DNA from: Oscillospiraceae bacterium
GTDB lineage: Bacteria > Bacillota > Clostridia > Oscillospirales > Ruminococcaceae
Direction: 5' to 3'
DNA length: 64,000 bases
Assembly: GCA_009784825.1 (NCBI GenBank)
Contig: WQXO01000002.1
Location: 62,001 to 126,000, forward strand
Shown: one piece after another, positions 4,917 to 61,418 of the stretch
Layout: each line of letters opens with the position of its first letter
How positions within the stretch are numbered: position 1 is the first letter of the stretch
The notes under the pieces: generated by a model
Databases searched by the model: none
The model's input: the letters and a program-made list of their open reading frames with translations, nothing else
Told to the model about the DNA's origin: nothing
Position numbers and translations under genes: made by a program

Positions 4917-4940
4917 TCCCCGTAAATCCCGCAAAGCGGG

Positions 4941-4964
4941 GCTTGCCGCCGGCGATGTCGTCGG
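4941..4964. repeat. Degenerate palindrome resembling the GCTTGCCCGAC element
   Basis: Starts GCTTGCCGCC and ends GTCGTCGG, with a CCG...CGG self-complementary structure. It looks like a diverged relative of the elements inside the genes at 25040-25060 and 60780-60800. A second small hairpin (CCCGCAAAGCGGG) lies just before it at 4928-4940. Confidence 0.4.
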
Positions 4965-24243: not shown

Positions 24244-24662
24244 TAATCCCAAACGCCCATTTCTCTGATTATTGCTCTTGTTGCCACACCGTTTTCGTTA
24301 TACACACAAAGCTCATATGTAATAAAACCTTCGCTTTCAGGGTGAATCTTGCTGCCTGCCGGATAAAGCCATTCACCCTCTTTATTAACATAACCGCCCA
24401 TTAAAACAATTTCTTTACATTCGTCATAGTTAAGCCCGATTAATGTTTTTTCCTTGACTAATTCTTCAATGAATAAATAGCGTTCGTTGGGTTCATATTT
24501 CGCATTGTCCATGTAGATAAATAACAGAAAGCCGCCTACTAAAAACGCAATAATTAAAACCACCGGAAGTGCGTATCCGAGAAACGCAACTATTTTCGGA
24601 GTTTCTTTAATTTTTACATTGTCTTTGATTTTTTTCTTCTTTTTCTTGTTACTTTTACTCAT
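24243..24662 (-). CDS. Single-pass membrane protein with Lys-rich N-terminus
   Basis: 139 residues from ATG 24662 (GAGG five bases before): a very basic start ([16 protein letters not shown]), one membrane helix (about 28-50) and an outer domain of about 85 residues ([35 protein letters not shown]). It overlaps the methyltransferase gene by four bases and ecfA1 by one, so it is coupled to both. I do not recognise a family. Confidence 0.7.
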
Positions 24663-25540
24663 ATGAACCTCACGATTGCCGTACAGCCGCACGGCATATT
24701 TAATCCCGACGCTTTGACGGGTAAGCCGATTTCGTCCGCCTCGACTGTTACAGAATATTTCCTGCCTACTGTCATATGCAACAAATACGCTGTCGCCTGT
24801 GCCGATAGTCCCGTTGTGTAGCTGTTCAGCATTAGAAATAACGGATTGTCCGACAAAACCTCGGTGCATTTAAGCATTAGTGAATTAAGCGAGTCCTCTA
24901 ACTTCCACATTTCTCCGCCCGTTCCCCTGCCGTAGCTCGGCGGGTCAAGGATTACTGCATCGTATTTTTTCCCTCGCTTGATTTCCCGATTAAGAAACTT
25001 AACTGCGTCGTCTATTATCCAACGCGGAGAGCCTCCGCCCGCTTGCCCGACTTCGTCGGGATTCCATAATCCACTTAATGTGGCATTTTCTTTTGCCCAC
25101 TCCACCATTCCTTTAACCGCATCAAGGTGGCAGACATTCGCTCCGGCTTTTAGGCAGGCGAGTGTTGCCCCTCCCGTATAGGCAAACAGGTTCAGCACGT
25201 TTATTTCTCTCCCTGCATTTGAAATAATCTCGGTGCAGAAGTCCCAGTTTACCGCTTGTTCCGGGAATACGCCGGTATGCTTAAATCCGGTTGGCTTAAC
25301 CTTGAAAGTTAACCCCTTATACGAGATGTTCCAATTATCCGGGATTTTCCGATTGTGTAACCATTCACCGGATTTTGAATCGGTGCGTATATACTTAGCG
25401 TCGGCGGTTTTGTTTAATTCGCTCCCCCACATGACTTGGGGGTCAGGGCGGATTAGGGTATATTCTCCCCAGCGTTCTAACCGCTCACCCGAAGAAGTGT
25501 CAAGCAGTTCATAATCTGTCCAGTCTGTGGCAACACGCAT
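24659..25540 (-). CDS. RlmI/RlmK-like class I SAM-dependent methyltransferase
   Basis: 293 residues. The SAM-binding domain shows VLNLFAYTGGATLACLKAGA (motif I), VCHLDAVKGMVEWAKENA and the catalytic-type AVILDPPSYGRG, with an N-terminal part KYIRTDSKSGEWLHNRKIP. This fits the family of 23S rRNA cytosine C5 methyltransferases (RlmI/RlmK-like), although the N-terminal PUA domain is absent, so the substrate is uncertain. PDEVGQA (residues 161-167), between the SAM pocket and RWIIDDAVKFL, is encoded by a palindromic element also present inside the asnB-like gene. Confidence 0.85.
   Translation of the reverse strand: MRVATDWTDYELLDTSSGERLERWGEYTLIRPDPQVMWGSELNKTADAKYIRTDSKSGEWLHNRKIPDNWNISYKGLTFKVKPTGFKHTGVFPEQAVNWDFCTEIISNAGREINVLNLFAYTGGATLACLKAGANVCHLDAVKGMVEWAKENATLSGLWNPDEVGQAGGGSPRWIIDDAVKFLNREIKRGKKYDAVILDPPSYGRGTGGEMWKLEDSLNSLMLKCTEVLSDNPLFLMLNSYTTGLSAQATAYLLHMTVGRKYSVTVEADEIGLPVKASGLNMPCGCTAIVRFI
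25040..25060 (-). repeat. In-frame palindromic element inside the methyltransferase gene
   Basis: A 21-base element with the core hairpin CCCGACTTCGTCGGG (25046-25060), identical over all 21 bases to 60780-60800 and read in the same frame, giving PDEVGQA in both proteins. Confidence 0.88.
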
Positions 25541-60029: not shown

Positions 60030-61418
60030 TTATACTAATGTTACATCATATTCACTCAGCCAGTGTTCAAGCTGGATAATATACGCCATTATTTGCGGGA
60101 CTGTCATTAACTGTCCGAACCAATTTTTCTTGAAATTCCCACCCTCAGTTTGAATTAAATCAAACAGTTTCTTTTTGTCGTAGATTTCCGTAACTCGGCA
60201 GTAGGGTTTGTTTATAACCTCGCTCAACCTTTCTGAAACACGTTTCATGTATTCAGGGTTGTGGGTCTTCGGGAACGGTGATTTTTTCCGCCATGCAACA
60301 CTTTCGGGGAGCAGTTCATTGAATGCATGACGCAGCAGCCCTTTCTCCCTGCCTTGATACGCTTTCATTTCCCACGGAATATTGTAGGCGTATTCAACGA
60401 TTTGGCGAGTATAAAAAGGCGTGAGGATTTTTAAACCGTGAACCTGTGACATTCTTTCACTGCGTTCCATTAATGTCTGCATGAATCCGTAGTAGTTCAG
60501 GCAGAACATTTCACGGCGTTTTCGGGTAAGTTCGTCGTCGGTGTCGAGATATGAAACATTGTCGATTATTTCCCTGTAGGCATAATTGATATATTCCTGA
60601 GGGTTGATTTTATTCAGAATGTCTTTCCTCAGTAAATCCGCACGTTCGGGGACGCTTCTTACCCAAGGCAGGCAAGCCTGTTTTGTTGTCGATGTCAATA
60701 AAGTTTCATCGAAATACCACTTATAACCGCCGAATAGTTCATCCGCCCCCTCACCGCTTAACGCCACAGAGCCTGTGGTCGCTTGCCCGACTTCGTCGGG
60801 TTTTCTCTCCATTTTAGCAACCTCTTGACAAAATAAATATAACGAGCTGTCAACGTCTGCCATGCCGGGTAAACCCCGTGCAGTTATTGCCGGGATTAAC
60901 GCATTGTAAAGCATATCGGTATCAAGGATTATCTGACGATGCGAACATTCCAAAAAATCGCACATTTCTTTAATGAACGGCGTGTCCTCGGTTGGTTGGA
61001 ACTCTCCCGCCTTGAAGTTTATGTTATTGTCTTTATAATCCACCGAATATGTCATTAATTCTTTTATTTTTCGAGCGGCAACCGTACCGATTATTGAGCT
61101 GTCAAGCCCTCCCGATAAAAACAAACACGGGTTTAAATCAAGATTGCTTTCGATTGATTTTGTCAGCAGCTCACGAATATGTGCCGAGGTTTCTTCAAAT
61201 GCTTCGGTATGTTCTTTAGCGAGCGGCTTATGCGGAAGTGTTTGTTTCACTCCTTTGAAAATTCCGCTTGACACAGGTCTGCCGGGACCCATTAGTGTTA
61301 TTGCCGCCACACCCTCAATATCTAAGCACGGCTTTATTTTAGAAATTTCGAGCAGTTCGGCAATGGTATCGGCATAGTAAGTTTTGCCATTATTTTCACA
61401 ATAGAATTGTCGGTTCAT
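60030..61418 (-). CDS. Asparagine synthase lacking most of the glutaminase domain
   Basis: 462 residues. The synthetase domain is complete: ATP-pyrophosphatase loop LFLSGGLDSSIIG (about 100-112), SVALSGEGADELFGGYKWY and the C-terminal FMQTLMERSERMSQVHGLKILTPF. The N-terminal glutamine amidotransferase is reduced to its last 60-70 residues and the catalytic Cys2 is missing (it begins MNRQFY), so ammonia would be the donor or another protein supplies it. PDEVGQA (207-213), just before the SGEGADE loop, is encoded by a palindromic element. Its ribosome site lies inside a terminator hairpin (61423-61468). Confidence 0.88.
   Translation of the reverse strand: MNRQFYCENNGKTYYADTIAELLEISKIKPCLDIEGVAAITLMGPGRPVSSGIFKGVKQTLPHKPLAKEHTEAFEETSAHIRELLTKSIESNLDLNPCLFLSGGLDSSIIGTVAARKIKELMTYSVDYKDNNINFKAGEFQPTEDTPFIKEMCDFLECSHRQIILDTDMLYNALIPAITARGLPGMADVDSSLYLFCQEVAKMERKPDEVGQATTGSVALSGEGADELFGGYKWYFDETLLTSTTKQACLPWVRSVPERADLLRKDILNKINPQEYINYAYREIIDNVSYLDTDDELTRKRREMFCLNYYGFMQTLMERSERMSQVHGLKILTPFYTRQIVEYAYNIPWEMKAYQGREKGLLRHAFNELLPESVAWRKKSPFPKTHNPEYMKRVSERLSEVINKPYCRVTEIYDKKKLFDLIQTEGGNFKKNWFGQLMTVPQIMAYIIQLEHWLSEYDVTLV
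60780..60800 (-). repeat. In-frame palindromic element inside the asnB-like gene
   Basis: Identical in 21 bases to 25040-25060 (core CCCGACTTCGTCGGG). It encodes PDEVGQA a few residues before the SGEGADELFGG loop. Confidence 0.88.

Follow-up and report, generated by a model that had tools for sequence, protein, structure and literature searches.

A 37-nucleotide double-hairpin repeat, probably a small mobile element, within conserved genes of an Oscillospiraceae bacterium

Why two unrelated enzymes should carry the same run of DNA within their genes is the question raised by the stretch of 64,000 nucleotides analyzed here (the window), which comes from the genome of an Oscillospiraceae bacterium (G000 among the genomes compared). 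A preliminary description had pointed out that the 21 bases CCCGACGAAGTCGGGCAAGCG are present at both 25040-25060 and 60780-60800, on the minus strand in each case, and that they encode PDEVGQA in the same frame of two open reading frames (ORFs). The match is exact, and two matches to the 21-mer with at most three mismatches were found in 0 of 100 dinucleotide shuffles of the window, which bears out this description. As set out below, both enzymes have the identical stretch because a repeat of 37 bases, consisting of two hairpins, has spread through the genome. It is likely that both window stretches are copies of a single small mobile element, dispersed and non-autonomous, that is recognized as a folded single strand.

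Past the 21-mer, each window copy runs into a second hairpin, giving a full element of 37 bases. The features of the window are as follows, where R2 is a covariance model that was built from 21 copies in five genomes.

24659..25540, minus strand: host gene 1, SAM-dependent methyltransferase, 293 aa (Pfam Methyltrans_SAM, PF10672; best PDB sequence match 2igt)
25024..25060, minus strand: element copy 1, double hairpin of 37 nt in the methyltransferase ORF, read as PDEVGQAGGGSPR (55.6 bits with R2, which was built with this copy included)
25046..25060, minus strand: copy 1, hairpin 1, CCCGAC-GAA-GTCGGG (hairpin search and fold)
25039..25045, minus strand: copy 1, linker CAAGCGG, part of which, across the family, shows covariation with the loop of hairpin 2
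25024..25038, minus strand: copy 1, hairpin 2, GCGGAG-GCT-CTCCGC (hairpin search, alignment and fold)
60030..61418, minus strand: host gene 2, asparagine synthase-like, 462 aa (Pfam Asn_synthase, PF00733), with the insert just before the VALSGEGADELFGG motif
60764..60800, minus strand: element copy 2, double hairpin of 37 nt in the asparagine synthase-like ORF, read as PDEVGQATTGSVA (56.7 bits with R2, which was built with this copy included)
60786..60800, minus strand: copy 2, hairpin 1, CCCGAC-GAA-GTCGGG (hairpin search and fold)
60779..60785, minus strand: copy 2, linker CAAGCGA (covariation)
60764..60778, minus strand: copy 2, hairpin 2, CCACAG-GCT-CTGTGG (hairpin search, alignment and fold)
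4927..4964, plus strand: weak, diverged third candidate copy (19.5 bits with R2 and E 0.0005 in a search of the window without filters), in no ORF of at least 150 aa

The asparagine synthase-like ORF is short at 462 aa, compared with open frames of about 600-650 aa for full-length matches in relatives, and to judge from these frames it may be without its N-terminal part.

The preliminary description had placed a hairpin at the core of the 21 bases; hairpin 1 is indeed found there, but the 21 bases are an incomplete part of the 37-base unit with its second hairpin. The 21-mer alone was rejected as the unit, since exact and near-exact genome searches yielded nothing more (no third copy genome-wide with at most three mismatches over 20 bases, and the exact 20-mer in 0 of 40 related genomes), whereas a structure model yielded a family. 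A covariance model made from the two window copies alone (R1) gave 12 genome matches at E<=10, ten of them additional, and R2 found 33 copies in this genome of 2.18 Mb at E<0.01, of which 26 have E<1e-6; the E-values of both models are rough, and R2 matches in the five genomes are partly circular because the model was built on their copies. Thirty of the 33 matches were examined as loci. Within this family the identity of the window pair is unexceptional, at least 18 exact bases being common to 12 of the 435 pairs of the 30 copies. No Rfam match was obtained in the window at the gathering score or, for 25000-25085, at E<=10, and no account of this element was found among the literature matches listed.

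The unit is mostly 36-39 nt long and comprises hairpin 1 (CCGNC-GAA-GNCGG), a linker close to CATGCG, and hairpin 2 with a variable stem and a GGCT-type loop; in the window copies these are two triloop hairpins with a 7-base linker between them. The predicted RNA fold consists of two separate 6-bp hairpins for both strands of both window copies, with a modest gain over shuffles (z from -1.2 to -2.3), and the minus strands folded as DNA also give two hairpins (z of -2.5 and -3.5 against shuffles). Two close hairpins are not unusual in themselves, simulated windows yielding 0-2 pairs with stems of at least 5; the case is built on sequence and structure jointly. In the alignment of 21 copies, which was fitted to the structure model and hence leans towards structure, 98.3% of pairs are standard and both sides change in 9 of 12 pairs, and double-change cells number 55, compared with 16.6 in shuffles (none of 500 as high); sliding the partners by one base lowers pairing to about 40%. 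Between the window copies, the first 21 bases are identical (21/21), and the hairpin-2 stems differ at three of six pairs, with every change compensated.

A larger set of 70 distinct rows was taken from 94 aligned matches (the top 82 by score, with identical rows merged and rows with more than five gaps left out). Their helix cells comprise 761 Watson-Crick, 20 G-T, 6 A-C and 31 other combinations, the non-standard cells being concentrated at the outermost pair 1-15 (30 of 37), and the excess of G-T over A-C suggests that one strand is the folding one. The strongest signal between the linker and any stem-loop is that of positions 19 (linker) and 30 (hairpin-2 loop), which are G-C or A-T in 62 of 70 rows (G-C 48, A-T 14, G-T 4, A-C 2, other 2), compared with a mean of 48.6 in within-genome shuffles, 0 of 20,000 of which were as high. 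An A-T or T-A combination is present at positions 17 and 31 in 21 of the 25 rows from G000 and in 43 of all 70 rows; 17 of the 70 have T-T. The simplest reading of this covariation is that the linker and loop 2 probably form a pseudoknot of two to three pairs. Hairpin 1 is missing in three short copies (mazG, asd and rsmA). In one locus (L095, 1501-1558), an extra hairpin, TAGTTTG-CAA-CAAACTA, lies within the hairpin-2 loop, like one hairpin inserted in another.

Twenty-three of the 30 examined copies are within ORFs of at least 200 aa, as are 2508 of 3000 random placements of 36 bases. The hosts named by NCBIfam are UvrA, PlsX, Obg, PurD, PriA, Mfd, PheT, PyrF, L-threonylcarbamoyladenylate synthase, IspG, MazG, Asd, RsmA/KsgA, a Cof-type hydrolase and YgiQ, together with AroA, RqcH/EfbA-like and FtsA-like hosts below the curated cut-offs; NCBIfam gave no match for the host of L088. 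One YgiQ-type radical SAM gene (L093) has two element copies, 1501-1536 and 1794-1829, in different frames. A further copy (L119), counted as in-gene by an open frame shared with a PdaB-like domain, may instead lie upstream of a PdaB-like gene.

That the two window enzymes had received an insertion, as the preliminary description supposed, is upheld by their orthologues: the insert is absent in 28 of 29 methyltransferases and in all 24 asparagine synthase rows that cover the site, which five further rows do not reach. In the 29th methyltransferase (L006, from species G003), this site is occupied by another double-hairpin insert (1996-2026), which resembles the element in opposite orientation. 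It matches the element model weakly (6.0 bits, E 0.37, ranking second among 12 matches in the 3.9 kb locus), and the sequence is possibly that of the same element reversed.

Another 17 in-gene copies were compared by codon alignment with 1 to 6 orthologues per protein, drawn from up to six related species; together with the two window copies they make up all 23 except both YgiQ copies, L088 and L119. Fifteen of these 17 host proteins exceed in length every compared orthologue without the element; the other two, mfd and mazG, have loops that vary in length between species and say nothing on insertion. The cleanest case is purD, in which exactly 36 nt, or 12 residues, are extra relative to 4/4 orthologues and no target-site duplication was visible by eye, the empty sites being from diverged species. 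Across hosts the net gain is 4 to 12 residues and most sites are not clean single insertions, so that in these alignments some host codons usually seem to have been lost as well. A strong target motif was rejected as an explanation of site choice: the preferences found beside hairpin 1 are only weak, as at position -2, which is A or C in 26/30 (P 3.6e-5 among 1200 tests).

The ORF is open across the element in 23/23 in-gene copies (by the definition used), and in 17/17 compared proteins the homology on both sides is in one frame. Copies are inserted in both orientations (14 sense, 9 antisense) and all six frames are used, with 11 of the 23 in the PDEVGQA-type frame and the other 12 spread over the remaining five. 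The preliminary description had taken a shared frame in two enzymes as a mark of a coding-compatible element rather than of chance. The coding-compatible part of this claim stands, given the genome-wide family, the orthologues without inserts and the scarcity of stops, which are absent from all six frames in 20 of 26 aligned own-genome copies (0.27 frames with a stop per copy on average, compared with 1.26 in shuffles, both over model columns only). The shared frame, however, is reduced to a moderate bias (P 5e-4 for the named frame, 0.003 after multiplication by six). Random frames and many gene disruptions had been named as evidence to the contrary; the former was found by half, with 12 of 23 copies in five other frames, and the latter was not seen, disrupted genes being such as selection would remove anyway. 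The favoured frame encodes small, polar residues, for which reason a filter for tolerance would suffice to account for the bias.

The seven G000 copies that are not in an ORF of at least 200 aa (L103, L095, L106, L111, L112, L113 and L114, with the element from 1501) all adjoin the upstream gene. At a distance of 0-1 nt, six of them follow the stop codon of an ORF of 111 to 499 codons and one follows the 3' end of a tRNA-Arg gene, and hairpin 2 always faces the upstream gene. Reading of the translations indicates neighbours that resemble groES/groEL, rpsM/rpsK, rplF/rplR, mraZ/rsmH and pheS. The same stop-flush placement was found in 3 of 11 copies inspected in relatives, and it is not predicted by random insertion. 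In-gene copies, inspected by eye, have no TA at the end that faces stops in the non-ORF copies. REPs are described in excerpts of PMC3733652 as lying close to gene 3' ends, and GTAG REPs as often providing a TAG stop.

R2 matches at E<=0.1, many of which are weak, are present in 45 of the 71 genomes from the genus, and the best E is <=1e-5 in 11 of the 71 including G000, in a many-genome search that was run with stricter filters. The source genome, G000, tops the genus with 34 matches, followed by G048 with 17. At the level of the order, E<=0.001 was reached in 12 of 197 genomes including G000; the best E in the other 11 was 1.3e-6 or weaker, and the matches outside G000 are possibly chance or REPs. 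A 19-base core had 15 matches in GTDB contigs, mostly in unrelated taxa, and three of these contigs scored with R2 gave 22-24 bits, two of them without a second hairpin. In the third, from Clostridiales bacterium PH28_bin88 (L192, 5710-5745), the 19-base core is followed by a possible second hairpin, CCTCC-CAGGC-GGAGG; this could be a distant copy or chance. Two core patterns gave 0 matches in viral contigs.

In G052, G055, G057 and G062 (L153-L159, L165-L174, L179, L125 and L181), only 3 of 20 related copies are in an ORF of at least 150 aa, and several are alike over a longer part upstream, CGACGTCCTCGACGCCCC; the element family may therefore include a branch that is REP-like. A separate hairpin repeat, GTAGGGGCGA...TCGCCC, is present at L067 10152-10189, L070 14507-14551 and L072 18761-18802, and looks like a GTAG-type REP, although PF01797, the Y1 transposase family, has 0 matches in G000 (98.7% complete).

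At two genes the insertion site is common to species. In uvrA, the insertion is at one site in G000 and G017 and in decayed form in G010 (hairpin 1 decayed, a hairpin 2 intact); G014 and G022 lack it, and the stretch found there in G006 is shorter. The simplest reading of this distribution would be inheritance by descent, with repeated insertion at a tolerant site as another possibility. In pheT, G012 and G048 have the insertion at one site with near-identical flanks and it looks inherited, while the G000 copy is at another place in pheT.

Established, then, are a structured and dispersed family with compensatory changes, its insertion into many conserved genes, and sites common to species at two genes. 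In the mechanism that we propose, the element would move in single-stranded form, as folded ssDNA or RNA that is recognized by an enzyme acting in trans, and insertion would take place with little regard for genes. Selection would then retain those in-gene copies that have a net length of a multiple of three and lie in tolerant loops, and the added peptide (PDEVGQA, SGEAGM and others) would be a tolerated passenger instead of a functional module. A bolder form of this proposal, which we offer tentatively and regard as doubtful, is a minimal mobile DNA of a new class: a 37-nt pseudoknotted double hairpin whose folded strand would be the mobilization signal for some non-Y1 machinery, perhaps with an RNA copy as intermediate; it would go freely into essential genes as mostly stop-free cassettes of 12 codons and intergenically at stop codons and a tRNA 3' end.

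An unlikely alternative in our judgement is that these are derivatives of REPs or of IS200-IS605 moved by a hairpin-recognizing tyrosine transposase (Y1, RAYT-type). Hairpins as the substrate, with no terminal inverted repeat seen, would suit such an enzyme, as would the copies flush with gene 3' ends, a placement that excerpts of PMC3733652 give for REPs, and PF01797 has matches in 20 of the 71 genus genomes. However, of the 11 genus genomes in which the element matches best, 8 lack any PF01797 match, G000 among them (matches are present in G052, G055 and G057), which argues against Y1 as the present mover, a lost or divergent one being compatible. Furthermore, a consistent tag is lacking in the 30 copies, where GTAG was found 0 times, CTAC 3, CGTC 1 and GACG 0 in the region from 6 nt beyond to 4 nt within either end. 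The copies might otherwise be conserved mRNA elements that serve the host message, for instance through its stability or through pauses in translation, the peptide being incidental. The compensatory structure and strand asymmetry agree with this, as do the six of seven non-ORF copies flush behind a stop codon, but we hold it to be rather improbable in view of the two orientations within genes (14 and 9) of unrelated hosts, the lack of the element in most compared orthologues, and the loss of hairpin 1 in the mazG, asd and rsmA copies.

It would take a quite improbable course of events for each double palindrome to have been made in place by template switching, with the hairpin-2 arm copied from the host. 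The 3' arm does coincide with host codons in several genes (uvrA, obg and asparagine synthase), and the window copies, identical over 21 bases, have the three compensated hairpin-2 differences described above; against this, loops and linker are alike at unrelated loci, which requires common descent, the same hairpin-2 sequences recur at unrelated sites, and in purD the whole 36 nt, both arms included, is extra, which weakens the notion of hairpin 2 as a host copy. Byps are short hairpin inserts in conserved genes of mitochondria that are bypassed by ribosomes, and the present inserts resemble them by analogy. Programmed bypassing, in which ribosomes would skip the insert, can nevertheless be given very little credence, since the open ORFs (23/23) and the one-frame homology on both sides (17/17) make skipping unneeded. 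Chance or convergent coding of a short peptide, which has the shortness of 21 bases and nothing else in its favour, is refuted by the shuffles of the window (0/100) and by the family-wide covariation, and its probability is negligible.

Selfish DNA within protein genes is best known from Rickettsia and Wolbachia (cited in PMC2229807). If the reading as a mobile element is true, the present repeat is a far smaller, two-hairpin version of such DNA, in a bacterium that carries a sporulation-type gene (the PdaB-like domain in the open frame of one copy) and in hosts as central as UvrA, Obg, PheT and IspG. The copies provide naturally matched proteins, some having a peptide insert and others lacking it, and would show a route by which new peptide segments enter old proteins. 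They also pose the question of what moves a 37-nt hairpin pair in a genome in which no Y1-family hairpin transposase was found with PF01797.

Among known systems, the Rickettsia palindromic elements (RPEs) are said to have been described by Ogata et al. in 2000 and 2002. The likeness, as far as partial descriptions go, is that of short palindromic DNA found in frame in conserved protein genes and also between genes; in-frame insertion in conserved genes is found here too, the RPEs being set beside the element by description only. According to excerpts of PMC2229807 and PMC10969869, RPEs are 105-146 or about 150 bp long and have a 12-bp terminal inverted repeat and long stem-loops, whereas the present element is 36-39 nt long with two independent hairpins and linker-loop covariation, its fold being two 6-bp hairpins instead of a whole-element stem-loop closed by a terminal inverted repeat. 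Classical MITEs have terminal inverted repeats and a target-site duplication; the ends of this element are unpaired in the predicted fold, and by eye no duplication was visible at purD, though the empty sites there are from diverged species. Double-hairpin elements of Allomyces were reportedly described by Paquin et al. in 2000; two adjacent hairpins as a repeated unit are the likeness, an analogy of architecture alone that implies no kinship by sequence, and the difference is that those elements are mitochondrial and fungal. In the accessible portions of PMC2800124 the mitochondrial elements are dispersed and have no flanking duplications, an RNA intermediate is suggested, and fungal in-gene copies are said to stay in transcripts. 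By its partial description, the Cod-2 stem-loop family (PMC2267715) is another near system.

REPs, as given in excerpts of PMC3733652, are 20-40 bp long and mostly intergenic, many lying by gene 3' ends and some in ORFs, including uvrA, and dimers or groups of them encode 20-30 aa. Intragenic REPs of the GTAG/CGTC kind (including RPE-4 and RPE-6) are, in these partial accounts, like the element in being small palindromic repeats, some in ORFs and some beside gene 3' ends. In contrast, the element has no consistent GTAG or CGTC end tag, the Y1 (RAYT) transposase associated with GTAG REPs has no PF01797 counterpart in G000, and two unequal hairpins are joined by a fixed linker, with 23 of 30 copies in genes where most REPs in those excerpts are intergenic. 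Because it lacks both the terminal inverted repeat of RPEs and the tag of REPs, the element is filed under neither; it acts, by analogy, like the Rickettsia palindromic elements and the intragenic REPs.
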